Of a DNA stretch of 64,000 nt, positions 54,569 through 64,000 are shown piece by piece. The translations under genes and the position numbers were made by a program. The stretch's first letter is position 1. Each line of letters starts with the position of its first letter. The DNA comes from Thermopolyspora flexuosa (GTDB taxonomy: Bacteria > Actinomycetota > Actinomycetes > Streptosporangiales > Streptosporangiaceae). The stretch is from assembly GCF_006716785.1 (NCBI RefSeq), contig NZ_VFPQ01000001.1, forward strand, positions 1,302,001 through 1,366,000. Reading direction: 5' to 3'. The notes under the pieces were generated by a model that ran no database searches, was not told the DNA's origin, and saw only the letters and a list, made by a program, of their open reading frames with translations.

Positions 54569-56489
<1,921 letters not shown>

Positions 56490-58097
56490 GTGAACGAGGT
56501 CCACCCGGGGAATCCCGCCGACTCCGCGCGACCGGGGGACGCGCCGCGGCAGGCGGACACGCAACCGGGGGAGACGCTGTACCTCAGGGACGCGGTGGAG
56601 CACCTGGAGCCGGGGCGCGCGGGTGGCACGCCGCCGGCGGCGGAGCCGGGGTATCCGGACCAGGGCCCGGCGTTCCCCGGTGGTCCCCGGGGCGGTGGAG
56701 CGGAGTACTCCGGTGAGGGGGCGGGGTATTCCGGGGAGACGTTGTATCTGCGGGACACGGTCGGTCAGGGTGATCCGGGGCGTGCGGGGGGCGTGTCGGG
56801 TCCGGCGACGGACCCGGGCTATCCGGCCGTGGGCTCGGGCTACGCGGACGATCCGCGGTATTCGGGGGGTGCGCCGCGTCCGGGGGCGGAACCGGGGTAC
56901 GGGGACGCGCCGCGCGGCAGTGGGGCGGAGTACTCCGGTGAGGGGGCGGGGTATTCCGGGGAGACGTTGTATCTGCGGGACACGGTCGGTCAGGGTGATC
57001 CGGGGCGTGCGGGGGGCGTGTCGGGTCCGGCGACGGACCCGGGCTATCCGGCCGTGAGCCCGGGCTACGGCGACGATTCGCCGTATCCGGGAGGTGCGCC
57101 GCGTCCCGGACCTGATCCGGGGTACGGGGACGGGCCCCGAGGCGGCGGCCCGGGCGGCCCGGGATACTCCTCCGGGGAGACGCTCTACCTCGGCGACACG
57201 GCCGGCCAGGGCGACCCGGGGCGTGCGGGAGGCGTGCCGGGGCCCGCGACCGATCCCGGCTATCCCGCCGTGGGCCCGGGGTACGCCGATGGCTCGCCGT
57301 ACCCGGTGACCATGCCGCCGGCCGCGGGCGATCCCGGGCGGCCCGACGACGGGCGGTACACCGGGGACCCGTACTCGGGGGGCACCTACGTCGGCGGCGG
57401 ATACGGGGGAGAGACGTACTCCGGCGACACGTATCCCGGTGGCTCCTATTCCGGAGAGCCCTACTCCGGCTCCGGCGACACGTACCCGGGCTCCGGGGAC
57501 GCGTACCAGGGCGACCCGTACTCCGGCGGAGAGTACATCGGCCAACCGGTGTACACCGGACCCGAGCCGCGCGCCGAGGAGCCGGGCCCGTCCGCCGAGA
57601 CCGGGCAGAACACGGCGCCGGTCACCCCGTTCACCATCGTCGAGCGGCCCGAGATGCTCGTGGTGGGGTACGCGGTCCGCACCTCGCCGGCGATCGAGGC
57701 GGACCCGTCCCGCGCCCAGCTCCCGGCCCTGTGGCGGCGGGCCGGCGCGCCCGGCGCGTTCGCCCACGTGCCCGCCCGCGTCGACGAGAACCTGTACGCG
57801 GTGCTGACCGACTACGAGAGCGACCACCGCGGCGCCTACACGCAGGTCGTCGGCATCGCCGTGCACACCGCCGCGCGCCTGCCCGAGGGCATGGTCGCGG
57901 TCCGGGTGCCGGGCGTGCCGGTGATGAAGCTGGAGGCGCGCGGGCCCATGCCGCAGGCGCTCATCGAGGCCTGGCAGCAGGTGTGGAAGCACACCGAGTC
58001 CGGGGCGAGCCCGGCCCGTGCCTTCACCACCGACGTCGAGGTGCACCATCCGGACGGCGCCGACCTCTACATCGCCGTCCTGATGCCGCCCTCCTGA
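56490..58097 (+). CDS. GETLYLRD-repeat protein with C-terminal GyrI-like effector-binding domain
   Basis: 535-aa two-part protein. The first 370 residues are disordered-looking and rich in Gly, Pro, Tyr, Ser. GETLYL begins at about residues 27, 82, 157 and 229 (RDAV, RDTV, RDTV, GDTA following), each trailed by GDPGRAGGV and DPGYPAV. Then a Tyr/Gly stretch (TYVGGGYGGETYSGDTYPGG). Residues about 375-535 match GyrI-like/AraC effector-binding domains: VVGYAVRTSPAIEADPSRAQ, YTQVVGIAVHTAARLPEGMV, VMKLEARGPMPQALIEAWQQ. GTG 56490 has GGAGGAG at 56478-56484. The domain may bind a small amphipathic ligand. Confidence 0.85.
   Translation: MNEVHPGNPADSARPGDAPRQADTQPGETLYLRDAVEHLEPGRAGGTPPAAEPGYPDQGPAFPGGPRGGGAEYSGEGAGYSGETLYLRDTVGQGDPGRAGGVSGPATDPGYPAVGSGYADDPRYSGGAPRPGAEPGYGDAPRGSGAEYSGEGAGYSGETLYLRDTVGQGDPGRAGGVSGPATDPGYPAVSPGYGDDSPYPGGAPRPGPDPGYGDGPRGGGPGGPGYSSGETLYLGDTAGQGDPGRAGGVPGPATDPGYPAVGPGYADGSPYPVTMPPAAGDPGRPDDGRYTGDPYSGGTYVGGGYGGETYSGDTYPGGSYSGEPYSGSGDTYPGSGDAYQGDPYSGGEYIGQPVYTGPEPRAEEPGPSAETGQNTAPVTPFTIVERPEMLVVGYAVRTSPAIEADPSRAQLPALWRRAGAPGAFAHVPARVDENLYAVLTDYESDHRGAYTQVVGIAVHTAARLPEGMVAVRVPGVPVMKLEARGPMPQALIEAWQQVWKHTESGASPARAFTTDVEVHHPDGADLYIAVLMPPS
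56700..56831 (+). repeat. 132-bp direct repeat inside the repeat-protein gene, copy 1
   Basis: Identical base for base to 56925-57056, 225 bases (75 codons) away. It encodes EYSGEGAGYSGETLYLRDTV onward. The copies share rare codons such as TTG TAT and GAT, so the copying is recent or gene conversion maintains it. Confidence 0.9.
56925..57056 (+). repeat. 132-bp direct repeat inside the repeat-protein gene, copy 2
   Basis: Identical to 56700-56831. The outer two GETLYL units (near 56570 and 57176) code similar peptides with different codons, so they are older. Confidence 0.9.
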
Positions 58098-59524: not shown

Positions 59525-60667
59525 TCAGGCGAGCACGCCCTCGTCGCGCAGCGCCCGTGCCGTCTCCGCGTCGATGCCCCAGGACGACAGGTCGTGCAGG
59601 CGGGTCGCCGGGGCGAGGTCGCCGTGCCCGCCGCCGAGCAGCCGCGGGGCCGGGGCCGGCTGGAGCCCGCCGCCGACCTCGACGAAGGTGCCGCGGGCGC
59701 GGTTGTGCGGGTGCCGCGGGGCCTCGCTCATCGTCAGCACGGGAAAGACGCAGGCGTCCGAGCCCTCGAAGATCTTCTCCCACTCGGCCCGGGTCCGCGA
59801 CCGGAACGCCTCCGCCAGCCGGGCGCGGATGGCCGGCCAGTTCGCCCGGTCGTTGCGGTCCGGCAGGTCCTCCAGCCCCAGCCGCGCCACGAGCTCGTCC
59901 CAGAACCTCGGCTCCAGCGCGCCCACGGCGACGTAGCCGCCGTCCGCGGTCTCGTAGGTGTCGTACTGCGGCGCTCCCGTGTCGAGCAGGTTCGTGCCCC
60001 GCTCGCCCCAGCCGGCGAGCGGCCCGCCGTCCGGCCCCGGCCGGAGCAGCGGGGAGAACAACGCGAACAGCAGCGCCGCGCCGTCCACCATCGCCGCGTC
60101 GATCACCCGCCCGCGGCCGGTGCGCTCCCGCTCGAACAGCGCGAGCACGATGCCGTACGCGAGCATCAGGCCGCCGCCCGCGAAGTCACCGAGGATGTTG
60201 ATCGGCGGGGTGGGCTTCTCCCCGGCCCGGCCGAGCATCGACAGCACCCCGGAGATCGCGATGTAGTCGATGTCGTGCCCGGCCCGCCCGGCGAGCGGCC
60301 CGTCCTGGCCCCACCCGGTCAGCCGCCCGTAGACGAGCCGCGGGTTGACCGCGTGCAGGTCGTCGGGCCCGATGCCGAGCCGCTCGGCGACCCCGGGCCG
60401 GAACACCTCGATCACCACGTCGGCCTGCGCGGCGAGCCGCTTGAACGCCTCGACCCCGCGCGGCGACTTCAGGTCGAGCCCGATGGTGCGCTTGCCCCGG
60501 TCGAGGGCGGTGCCGTGCGGCCGGTCGCCGAGCGCCCGCACCGTCTCCACCCGGTCGACGCGCAGCACCTGCGCACCGTGGTCGGCGAGCATCATCCCGG
60601 CGAACGGCCCCGGCGCGAGCCCGGCCAGCTCCAGCACGCGCACCCCGGCCAGCGGCCCATTCCCCAT
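59525..60667 (-). CDS. CaiB/BaiF family CoA transferase, probable alpha-methylacyl-CoA racemase
   Basis: Family III CoA transferase or racemase of 380 aa. The start GPLAGVRVLELAGLAPGPFAGMMLADHGAQVLRVDR and the catalytic aspartate region AGHDIDYIAISGVL are close to alpha-methylacyl-CoA racemase (AMACR/MCR), with the His and Asp of HDIDYIA as proton-transfer residues. LGDFAGGG is the later family box. Racemase rather than transferase fits these motifs best. It lies near the methyl-branched fatty acid genes tmsAB, which may be relevant since AMACR inverts 2-methyl acyl-CoA. Confidence 0.88.
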   Translation of the reverse strand: MGNGPLAGVRVLELAGLAPGPFAGMMLADHGAQVLRVDRVETVRALGDRPHGTALDRGKRTIGLDLKSPRGVEAFKRLAAQADVVIEVFRPGVAERLGIGPDDLHAVNPRLVYGRLTGWGQDGPLAGRAGHDIDYIAISGVLSMLGRAGEKPTPPINILGDFAGGGLMLAYGIVLALFERERTGRGRVIDAAMVDGAALLFALFSPLLRPGPDGGPLAGWGERGTNLLDTGAPQYDTYETADGGYVAVGALEPRFWDELVARLGLEDLPDRNDRANWPAIRARLAEAFRSRTRAEWEKIFEGSDACVFPVLTMSEAPRHPHNRARGTFVEVGGGLQPAPAPRLLGGGHGDLAPATRLHDLSSWGIDAETARALRDEGVLA

Positions 60668-61020
60668 CGTCCGGCACCTCCCGGTACGGCGGCGGCAAAG
60701 CGGTCAATATGGTCCCGATCCGCCTAGTAGAACAAGATTCGGCCGGCGTTCGCAACCGCCGTGTCCAGGCGCGACGGGAGCCCGTGCGGCCGTGCCGTAC
60801 CTCCGGCCGCCAATGGCCTAGACCGGTTGTTGACCTGGGCTTCGGTGTGTCGTCACGGAGTTTTCCGGCCGCGCCGCTTAGAATTTCTTGTCGGCCTCTA
60901 CCGGTTTCGGGGACCCGCTGAGTTTTCGCACGTTTAACGTGTCTAGTCTGGTCCGGGGTTATTGAAGGAGATACCGTCACGTAGAGGCGAACTCCGCTAA
61001 CAAATCGTGGGGGTGATGGC
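60668..61020. other. 353-base divergent region upstream of tmsA
   Basis: Carries the promoter of tmsAB. AT-rich patches occur at 60885-60900 and 60923-60950. A perfect palindrome is listed separately. No gene. Confidence 0.6.
60929..60941. promoter_or_regulatory. Palindrome CACGTTTAACGTG, candidate operator
   Basis: Six-base arms CACGTT and AACGTG around one central T, 80 bases upstream of tmsA. TAGTCT at 60944-60949 could be a -10 next to it. Possible site of a fatty-acid-responsive regulator. Confidence 0.45.
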
Positions 61021-62427
61021 ATGCCCGGACGCGGGACCGGTTCCTCAGTGGTGAGGACCCGCCCCTCCGAGCCCCGCATGGCGGCGCACCAGAGGGCCGT
61101 CGAGCAGATCAAGGCGTCGTACGCCGAGCTGCCCGAGGGCGCGCCGCCGCGGCTCGCCAAGGGCACGACCAACCTGTTCCGGTTCCGCCCCCCGGCCCGT
61201 CAGGCGAAGCTCTCCGCCAAGGACCTGGACCAGGTGATCTCGGTCGATCCGGAGACCCGGACCGCCGAGGTCCAGGGCATGACCACCTACGAGACCCTGG
61301 TGGACGCCACGCTGCCGTACGGGCTCATGCCGTACGTGGTGCCGCAGCTCAAGACGATCACCCTCGGCGGCGCCGTCACCGGCCTCGGCATCGAGTCCAC
61401 CAGCTTCCGCAACGGCCTGCCGCACGAGTCGGTCGAGGAGATGGAGATCCTCACCGGGGACGGCCGCGTGGTCGTCGCCCGGCCCGACGGCGAGCACGCG
61501 GACCTGTTCCGCGCGTTCCCCAACTCCTACGGCACGCTCGGCTACGCGCTGCGGCTGCGGATCAAGCTCGCCCCGGTGAAGCCCTACGTACGGCTGACGC
61601 ACCTCCGCTTCACCGACGCGCACAAGTGCATGCTGGCGATGCAGGAGATCTGCGAGGCCGGCGACCTCGACGGCGAGACCGTGGACTTCGTCGACGGCGT
61701 CTTCTTCGCCCCGGACGAGCTGTACATCACCGTGGGCCGGTTCGCCGACCGGGCGCCGTACACCTCGGACTACACCGGCATGCGCATCTACTACCAGTCG
61801 ATCCGCCGGCGCGGCCGGGACTGGCTCACGGTGCGCGACTACCTGTGGCGGTGGGACACCGACTGGTTCTGGTGCTCGCGCGCGTTCGGCGTGCAGCAGC
61901 CGCTGGTGCGCTCGCTCGTGCCGCGCCGCTGGCTGCGCTCGGACGTCTACCGGAAGCTGGTCGGCCTCGACAAGCGCTTCCAGATCACCGCGCGGGTGGA
62001 CCGCTGGCTCGACCGCCCGGTGCAGGAGTCGGTGATCCAGGACGTGGAGATCCCGGTCGAGCGCGGCGCCGACTTCCTCGCCTTCTTCCACGAGAAGGTC
62101 GGCATGACGCCGGTGTGGATGTGCCCGCTCAAGGCACAGGAGCACTGGCCGCTCTACCCGATGGAGCCGAACCGGCTGTACGTCAACTTCGGCTTCTGGG
62201 GCATGGTCCCGCTGCCCCGCGGGCAATACGACGGGTACTACAACCGCCTGATCGAGAAGGCCGTGCACGATCTCGAGGGCCACAAGTCGCTGTACTCCAC
62301 GTCGTTCTACCCCCGCGAGGAGTTCTGGCGCCTCTACAACGGGGACGCCTACTGGCCGGTCAAGCGGGCCTACGACCCCGACGGCAGGCTTCTCGACCTC
62401 TACGACAAGTGCGTCCGGGGGCGTTAG
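61021..62427 (+). CDS. tmsA: FAD-dependent reductase for 10-methyl fatty acids (TmsA/BfaA type)
   Basis: 468-aa flavoprotein of the PCMH/vanillyl-alcohol-oxidase fold, related to DHCR24 sterol reductase. FAD region is VVPQLKTITLGGAVTGLGIE (about 109-128), with LTGDGRVVVARPDGEHADLF and NSYGTLGYALRLRIKLAPV following. In mycobacteria and other actinomycetes the homologous gene partners a methyltransferase: the pair turns oleoyl phospholipid into 10-methylstearoyl phospholipid, this enzyme reducing the 10-methylene intermediate. tmsB follows 13 bases later. ATG 61021 is used; ATG 61078 is also possible. Confidence 0.88.
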   Translation: MPGRGTGSSVVRTRPSEPRMAAHQRAVEQIKASYAELPEGAPPRLAKGTTNLFRFRPPARQAKLSAKDLDQVISVDPETRTAEVQGMTTYETLVDATLPYGLMPYVVPQLKTITLGGAVTGLGIESTSFRNGLPHESVEEMEILTGDGRVVVARPDGEHADLFRAFPNSYGTLGYALRLRIKLAPVKPYVRLTHLRFTDAHKCMLAMQEICEAGDLDGETVDFVDGVFFAPDELYITVGRFADRAPYTSDYTGMRIYYQSIRRRGRDWLTVRDYLWRWDTDWFWCSRAFGVQQPLVRSLVPRRWLRSDVYRKLVGLDKRFQITARVDRWLDRPVQESVIQDVEIPVERGADFLAFFHEKVGMTPVWMCPLKAQEHWPLYPMEPNRLYVNFGFWGMVPLPRGQYDGYYNRLIEKAVHDLEGHKSLYSTSFYPREEFWRLYNGDAYWPVKRAYDPDGRLLDLYDKCVRGR

Positions 62428-62440
62428 GAGGTTTCACCGG

Positions 62441-63703
62441 ATGACCACACTCGCGCGGATCTTCGAGAGGATCGTGGGCGACGACGTCGGGGTCGCGTTC
62501 TCGGCCTACGACGGCAGCAAGGCGGGTCCGGACGACGCCGACATCAGGATCGAGGTGAAGTCCCCCATCGCGGTGGCCTACCTCGCCCAGGCGCCGGGCG
62601 AGCTGGGCCTCGCCCGGGCGTACGTGTCCGGCCACATCGACGTGCACGGCGACCTGTACACGCTGCTGTCGCGCATGTGGTCGCTCACCCTCAACGACCT
62701 GCCGCTGCGCGAGAAGCTCGACGCCATCCGGTCGCTCGGGGTCAAGCCGCTGCTCATGCGGGTGCCCCCGCCGCCGCAGGAGGTACGGCGCAGCGCCCTG
62801 GCCCGCCTCGGCAGCCGGCACGCCAAGCAGCGGGACGCCAAGGCGATCAGCCACCACTACGACGTCTCCAACCGGTTCTACGAGTGGGTGCTCGGCCCCT
62901 CCATGACCTACACCTGCGCGGTGTTCCCCAAGGAGGACTCCACCCTGGAGGAGGCCCAGTACACCAAGCACGACCTGGTGGCCAGGAAGCTCGGCCTCCG
63001 GCCCGGGATGCGGCTGCTCGACGTCGGCTGCGGCTGGGGCGGCATGGTGATGCACGCGGCCGAGAAGTACGGCGTCAAGGCGCTCGGCGTGACGCTGTCC
63101 CGGCAGCAGGCCGAGTGGGCGCAGAAGGCGATCGCCGAGCGCGGGCTCGGTGACCTCGCCGAGGTCCGGCACATGGACTACCGCGACGTGACCGAGACCG
63201 GCTTCGACGCGATCAGCTCCATCGGCCTCACCGAGCACATCGGCAAGGACAACCTGCCGTTCTACTTCCGCTTCCTCAACTCCAAGCTCAAGCCGGGCGG
63301 GCGGCTGCTCAACCACTGCATCACCCGGCCCACCGGCAAGGAGAAGACGATCAACACCGGCGGGTTCATCAACCGCTACATCTTCCCGGACGGGGAGCTG
63401 GAGTCGGTCGGCTACCTGATCCGGCAGATGGAGGACAACGGCTTCGAGATCCGGCACGAGGAGAACCTGCGCGAGCACTACGCCAAGACGCTGCGGTTCT
63501 GGTGCGCCAACCTCGAGGAGCACTGGGACGAGGCGGTGCAGGAGGTCGGCCGGGCGATCGCCCGGATCTGGCGCCTCTACATGGCCGGGTGCATCGTCGG
63601 CTTCGAGCGCAACAAGGTCCAGCTCCACCAGGTGCTCGCGGTGAAGCTGGAGTCCGACGGCACCTCGCACGTGCCGCTGCGGCCCGCCGTCGACTGGCCC
63701 TGA
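62441..63703 (+). CDS. tmsB: SAM-dependent fatty-acyl phospholipid methyltransferase (TmsB/BfaB type)
   Basis: 420-aa member of the cyclopropane fatty acid synthase family. SAM motif I is LLDVGCGWGGMVMHAA; the acyl-site and bicarbonate-type residues are in SNRFYEWVLGPSMTYTCAVF and SIGLTEHIG, and CIVGFERNKVQLHQVL is at the end. Next to the TmsA reductase gene this protein is expected to methylenate the double bond of oleoyl chains at C10 rather than form a cyclopropane. It begins 13 bases after tmsA, with AGGAGG across the tmsA stop, so it is coupled. Confidence 0.9.
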   Translation: MTTLARIFERIVGDDVGVAFSAYDGSKAGPDDADIRIEVKSPIAVAYLAQAPGELGLARAYVSGHIDVHGDLYTLLSRMWSLTLNDLPLREKLDAIRSLGVKPLLMRVPPPPQEVRRSALARLGSRHAKQRDAKAISHHYDVSNRFYEWVLGPSMTYTCAVFPKEDSTLEEAQYTKHDLVARKLGLRPGMRLLDVGCGWGGMVMHAAEKYGVKALGVTLSRQQAEWAQKAIAERGLGDLAEVRHMDYRDVTETGFDAISSIGLTEHIGKDNLPFYFRFLNSKLKPGGRLLNHCITRPTGKEKTINTGGFINRYIFPDGELESVGYLIRQMEDNGFEIRHEENLREHYAKTLRFWCANLEEHWDEAVQEVGRAIARIWRLYMAGCIVGFERNKVQLHQVLAVKLESDGTSHVPLRPAVDWP

Positions 63704-63719
63704 CCGAGCCTCGGACACG

Positions 63720-63759
63720 GGTACGGCCCGCCTCGGCGACGCGGAAGGCGGGCCGTACC
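63720..63759. terminator. Bidirectional hairpin terminator, 14-bp stem
   Basis: GGTACGGCCCGCCT (63720-63733) pairs with AGGCGGGCCGTACC (63746-63759) over a 12-base loop. It separates the convergent tmsB and acyl-CoA synthetase genes. Confidence 0.8.
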
Positions 63760-63823
63760 GGGACGGACGCGGATCCGGCCGCGGGCCGGTCCCAGCTCGG
63801 GGTCGGGACCGGGCCGTCGGCCG

Positions 63824-64000
63824 TCAGCCGCGCAGCTCGCGCTTGAGGATCTTGCCGGTGGCGGTCATCGGCAGCGAGTCACGGAACTCGACGATGCGCG
63901 GGTACTTGTAAGCGGCCATGTGCTCCTTGGCCCAGGCGATCAGCTCCTCCTCGGTGATCTTCGCGCCCGGGTTGAGGATCACGTACGCCTTGATCTCCTC
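63824..64000 (-). CDS. Acyl-CoA synthetase (AMP-forming), C-terminal end only
   Basis: Translated from the minus strand, the 58 visible residues are the C-terminal lid domain of an ANL-superfamily enzyme: EEIKAYVILNPGAKITEEEL, WAKEHMAAYKYPRIVEF and the catalytic lysine in MTATGKILKREL. It makes acyl-CoA from a carboxylic acid and ATP. The rest lies beyond the window. Chain-length specificity cannot be read. Its position facing tmsAB fits lipid metabolism. Confidence 0.93.
   Translation of the reverse strand, partial: EEIKAYVILNPGAKITEEELIAWAKEHMAAYKYPRIVEFRDSLPMTATGKILKRELRG

Follow-up and report, generated by a model that had tools for sequence, protein, structure and literature searches.

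What do two adjoining genes, one for a FAD-binding oxidoreductase and one for a methyltransferase of the CMAS family, produce in Thermopolyspora flexuosa? Both lie in the window, by which we mean the whole stretch of 64,000 nucleotides that was analysed. The original prediction read them as a tmsA-tmsB pair and expected 10-methyl-branched fatty acids. Gene anatomy, family membership, clade placement, retained active-site residues and genome context lead us to the same reading: by analogy with characterised systems, we give a probability of about 0.95 to a tmsAB (bfaAB) operon that makes 10-methyl fatty acids. TmsB would use SAM to methylate a delta-9 monounsaturated acyl chain, giving a 10-methylene intermediate, and TmsA, with FAD and NADPH, would reduce this intermediate to the saturated 10-methyl acid. 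The most likely product here would be 10-methyl-heptadecanoic acid, together with its C16 and C18 relatives. Substrate, cofactors and both chemical steps would thereby follow those of the published homologues.

The anatomy of the pair is simple. The genes tmsA (61021–62427, 468 aa) and tmsB (62441–63703, 420 aa) lie on the + strand, contain no internal stop codon and are separated by exactly 13 bases, just as first described. A likely ribosome-binding site for tmsA, GGGGGTGAT, was read from the sequence at 61009–61017 (+ strand). The corresponding site for tmsB, AGGAGG at 62426–62431 on the same strand, overlaps the tmsA stop codon (TAG, 62425–62427) and stands 9 bases 5' of the tmsB ATG. Both calls follow what we take to be the ribosome-binding consensus. 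The overlap with the stop codon is compatible with coupled translation of tmsB without proving it. Close spacing is usual rather than fixed, since the distance from A stop to B start ranges from −19 to 88 bases in 29 relatives, two values below −4 being dependent on a mechanically chosen start codon. The exact position of the tmsA start codon is uncertain: the alignment begins at residue 15 or later in 17 of the 29 relatives and at residues 1–11 in the other 12, and residues 1–15 of the TmsA model have pLDDT values below 50. A promoter scan of 60400–64000 was uninformative, with no sigma-70-like site (0.1 in shuffles) and one terminator-like site against a shuffle mean of 1.3.

TmsB matches the Pfam family CMAS (2e-101), to which E. 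coli Cfa also belongs. The methyltransferase could in principle be a true cyclopropane fatty acid synthase, with the FAD gene as an unrelated neighbour. Consistent with this alternative, CfaB is the best NCBIfam match of TmsB, though its 335 bits fall well short of the 650 required there, and all five residues of the Cfa bicarbonate site are present: C159, E265, H292, I294 and Y347 of TmsB align with C139, E239, H266, I268 and Y317 of E. coli Cfa, the numbers that we take to define this site. These five positions are identical in 111/111 tmsA-linked rows of the alignment, as in Cfa, so that conservation of the site, which bfaAB-type enzymes share, cannot alone separate the two chemistries. The overall identity of TmsB to E. 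coli Cfa, on the other hand, is 37%, and the annotated neighbours of E. coli cfa (punC, ribC and mdtK) include no FAD partner, unlike those of tmsB.

Phylogeny separates the two groups clearly. In a large tree of 151 rows, 112 TmsB rows fall on one side of a branch with an SH-aLRT value of 99; this clade takes in one locus (L071) whose upstream side is lost at a contig end. Outside it are E. coli Cfa and two genes annotated as cfa, the short CMAS proteins of a presumably mycobacterial genome (G031), a group of 12 CMAS proteins, six of which carry the motif GMAEH or GMSEH, and further CMAS groups. A careful tree of 53 of these rows, hand-picked for spread, splits 32 tmsA-linked rows from the 21 others with a bootstrap of 100 and an SH-aLRT value of 99. 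The program flagged several long outgroup branches in this tree, which affect the relations among the outgroups more than the tmsA-linked split. Three − strand fragments from a Prescottella plasmid (L162) were left out of the trees, and the link from the trees to experimentally tested BfaB enzymes runs through genus or family and operon structure. Placement among the cyclopropane synthases, which would have spoken against the original prediction, is not seen: in both trees TmsB groups with the tmsA-linked enzymes. Both trees reject a cyclopropane synthase identity for TmsB.

Three further positions are signature residues that tell tmsA-linked from other CMAS rows in the alignment. Leu263 is found in 109/111 tmsA-linked rows and 0/38 others, Thr264 in 107/111 and 0/38, and His339 in 111/111 and 1/38. 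In these counts L071 and a divergent locus, L138, were left out of both sides; L162 was entered as tmsA-linked, although its TmsA homologue is split in two and lies on the opposite strand, and two Variovorax loci (L164 and L165) were entered as other, although a TmsA homologue adjoins each. The Leu-Thr signature is partly circular among the loci from named genomes, since these were fetched with a pattern that held [IV]SSIGLTEH; it also holds in 29/29 relatives fetched without that pattern. We infer that Leu-Thr beside the conserved Glu may steer the TmsB reaction to a methylene product instead of a ring. With the trees, the signature residues and the regular tmsA partner described below all against it, a cyclopropane synthase beside an unrelated FAD gene is a very unlikely description of this pair.

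The partner protein TmsA matches Pfam FAD_binding_4 (7e-12), and its best NCBIfam match is DprE1, below the curated cut-off. Among the solved structures, the predicted fold (mean pLDDT 80.6, pTM 0.83) comes closest to DprE1 and cytokinin dehydrogenase; 657 fold matches were obtained, and the 50 of them that were listed have TM-scores of 0.54–0.63 normalised by the model. The model thus presents TmsA as a FAD enzyme with a fold that we take to be of the VAO/PCMH class. The original prediction had called the reductase DHCR24-like; no DHCR24 (delta-24-sterol reductase) chain occurred in two sets of sequence matches (26 and 41) or in those 50 fold matches. One might imagine that the pair is functional but that its pathway ends at the methylene stage or leaves the expected route there, as it could if the substrate of TmsA were a sterol or an isoprenoid. 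The sequence matches to DprE1 and cytokinin dehydrogenase leave room for such a substrate: they cover part of the length, around the FAD domain, so that the substrate of TmsA cannot be read from its solved relatives. Against it, TmsA shares 56–83% identity with 18 further TmsA proteins from such operons (an alignment of 19 proteins, with L110 and L139 left out), and PMC7791843 reports NADPH-dependent reduction of the methylene acid by crude extract containing T. curvata BfaA. We consider a halt or branch at the methylene stage hardly credible and predict that TmsA reduces the 10-methylene intermediate with NADPH.

The pairing itself is strongly conserved. We searched 41 genomes including the host, 25 of which (host included) carry the host's family label, and 35 had a TmsB match at E ≤ 1e-20. 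A TmsA homologue lies directly 5' of tmsB on the same strand in 29/29 relatives for which loci were returned, and the nearest relative is 86% identical in TmsB and 84% in TmsA. Judged from these alignments, the match of tmsAB to its relatives is far beyond chance. A scan of named genomes gave at least 572 coding relatives in at least 592 stretches; among the best 80 that were kept, tmsA stands directly 5' of tmsB in 78, across many actinobacterial families. The two exceptions are L071, which begins at the contig end, and L138, with 2.7 kb upstream and no tmsA. Among the matches listed, the nearest named TmsB relatives come from Microbispora, Planobispora and Acrocarpospora (79–82% identical), and the homologues in Nonomuraea gerenzanensis are 82.1% (TmsB) and 81.5% (TmsA) identical. 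No TmsA homologue (E ≤ 1e-10) was detected in the stretches of a few kb from the comparison loci L141–L160, L166–L173 and L175.

Several unusual arrangements came to light in these searches. The TmsB relative of L138, from the Actinomycetes MAG nzgw101, is 49–51% identical, carries Met, Ser and His at positions 263, 264 and 339 with the motif GMSEH, and branches next to the 112-row clade of the large tree as sister to the whole TmsB clade. L141, L142, L144, L145 and L146 hold adjoining pairs of two different CMAS-family genes, from two clades apart from TmsB. In the Betaproteobacteria Variovorax paradoxus (CP063167.1, L164:3689–6263) and Variovorax sp. PDNC026 (L165), the order is reversed: a homologue of TmsA, with 50% and 47% identity respectively, lies directly behind a CMAS-family gene, which it overlaps in the former. 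The CMAS-family protein of these two loci sits on a long separate branch of the tree and has the motif SIGTLEHAG, and the loci may combine a TmsA-type reductase with a different methyltransferase in a further kind of pair. The 38-kb plasmid NZ_CP130944.1 of Prescottella sp. R16 (L162) encodes a TmsB relative alongside the two-piece TmsA homologue, two TetR and two Rieske genes and fragments of further methyltransferase-like sequence. In Tsukamurella tyrosinosolvens, a 67-kb record labelled as a plasmid (NZ_LR134445.1) holds an SRPBCC gene, tmsA and tmsB between recR/YbaB and the gene for DNA polymerase III gamma/tau; these surroundings look chromosomal, and the supposed plasmid may be part of the chromosome.

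The pair resembles the bfaAB/tmsAB operons of M. chlorophenolicum, T. curvata, T. fusca and M. smegmatis (MSMEG_6283–6284) in gene order, with the oxidoreductase gene directly 5' of the CMAS-family gene, in both protein families, in its Cfa-type active-site residues and in its near-contiguous placement on one strand. It differs in lacking, within the 16-kb stretch taken for this locus, a homologue of the SRPBCC gene that precedes tmsA in Tsukamurella, which we took to be the third gene bfaC; such a gene stands 5' of tmsA in 28 of the best 80 of at least 572 named loci. The gamma-proteobacterial ten-methyl-palmitate operon tmpBA also combines a methyltransferase with a flavoprotein, but with the order B-A and an unrelated reductase, as PMC7791843 describes it. 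With the mycolic acid cyclopropane synthases and MmaA, TmsB shares the CMAS catalytic domain; two short CMAS proteins of G031 are 38% identical to it over 266–276 residues and form a separate clade.

The host genome offers a plausible setting for the predicted reaction. TmsB is its only full-length CMAS-family match, while partial matches occur at five other places, two of them over the Pfam cut-off. A search for desaturases of families PF00487 and PF03405 found one PF00487 gene and no PF03405 gene; the former had no NCBIfam match at 1e-20. Its histidine-rich motifs resemble what we take to be those of a delta-9 acyl desaturase, and if the protein is of this type it would supply the substrate of TmsB. 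In published work, the same three-gene logic of a desaturase plus the pair is set out for T. fusca (PMC9198275), bfaAB of M. chlorophenolicum proved functional as two genes in E. coli (PMC5660069), and bfaAB of M. smegmatis, R. opacus, T. fusca and T. curvata were functional in E. coli (PMC7791843). Table 1 of the same report lists product from four of 11 bfaAB operons in E. coli and none from the other seven; the authors also report that methylene acids are degraded by acid. Three further papers state that the M. smegmatis cfa gene is required for tuberculostearic acid (PMC10127668), that Nonomuraea composti contains 10-methyl-C17:0 in a pattern like that of N. gerenzanensis (PMC11091084), and that this acid occurs in all Microbispora species but two (PMC7338456). 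The 10-methyl product first predicted from the two genes is thus supported by the tree, the tmsA partner, the gene order and spacing, the desaturase gene and the chemistry of relatives.

The original prediction went further and placed the pair in a local fatty-acid cluster, naming an AMACR-like gene and an acyl-CoA synthetase as neighbours. Both genes are indeed there. The ORF at 59525–60667 (− strand, CoA_transf_3) is divergent from tmsA and outside the operon. Its best PDB matches are AMACR/MCR (E ~1e-107), and the racemases score 334–364 bits against 143 bits for the next group of class III CoA transferases, which makes it a strong AMACR homologue. At 63824–64000 (− strand), convergent with tmsB, lie the last 58 codons of a FadD-like acyl-CoA ligase that continues past the window; in the host genome its longest ORF extends to 65605 in window coordinates. 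Farther upstream, at 56448–58097, a 549-aa ORF combines an N-terminal part rich in Gly, Pro and Tyr with a C-terminal Cass2/GyrI-like effector-binding domain, and at positions 56691–57306 within it a 225-base unit recurs in tandem (2.8 copies).

Could tmsAB, the racemase and the ligase act together as a functional cluster for the synthesis and recycling of 10-methyl acids? Degradation of such an acid by beta-oxidation would lead to a 2-methylacyl-CoA, the type of substrate used by AMACR. Moreover, all 10 near relatives with long flanks (L047–L052, L061–L064) have a divergent AMACR homologue no more than about 4.2 kb from tmsA, and a FadD gene is nearby in 8 of these 10. But both neighbours are on the strand opposite to tmsAB, and in two relatives inspected, a kinase-like and a dehydrogenase-like gene (named by reading), both seemingly unrelated, stand between AMACR and tmsA. 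In 18-kb stretches from seven more distant relatives AMACR is absent throughout; FadD is present in five. General synteny may suffice to explain the linkage of AMACR and FadD to tmsAB, since leuS (5 of 13 stretches) and lexA (3 of 13) are also near. The neighbours named in the original prediction therefore stand, whereas the cluster drawn from them is weak, and we regard a single functional unit as unlikely.

The tmsAB operon is a sound and correctly read find, and an ordinary one: pair, mechanism and presence in the chemistry of the group are all expected from the published tests of homologues and the reports of 10-methyl-C17:0. The possible racemase link is the sole part of potential specialist interest. 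It seems improbable that the host, Microbispora, Planobispora, Acrocarpospora and their kin have kept tmsAB, a divergent racemase and a convergent ligase together for synthesis and recycling. If the idea were true, beta-oxidation of the 10-methyl chain would leave a 2-methylacyl-CoA for which the racemase is required. A limited set of literature searched for methylacyl-CoA racemase jointly with tuberculostearic acid yielded nothing. The pair itself raises no new question and gives a clear genetic basis, in one more genome, for the long-used chemotaxonomic marker 10-methyl-C17:0.
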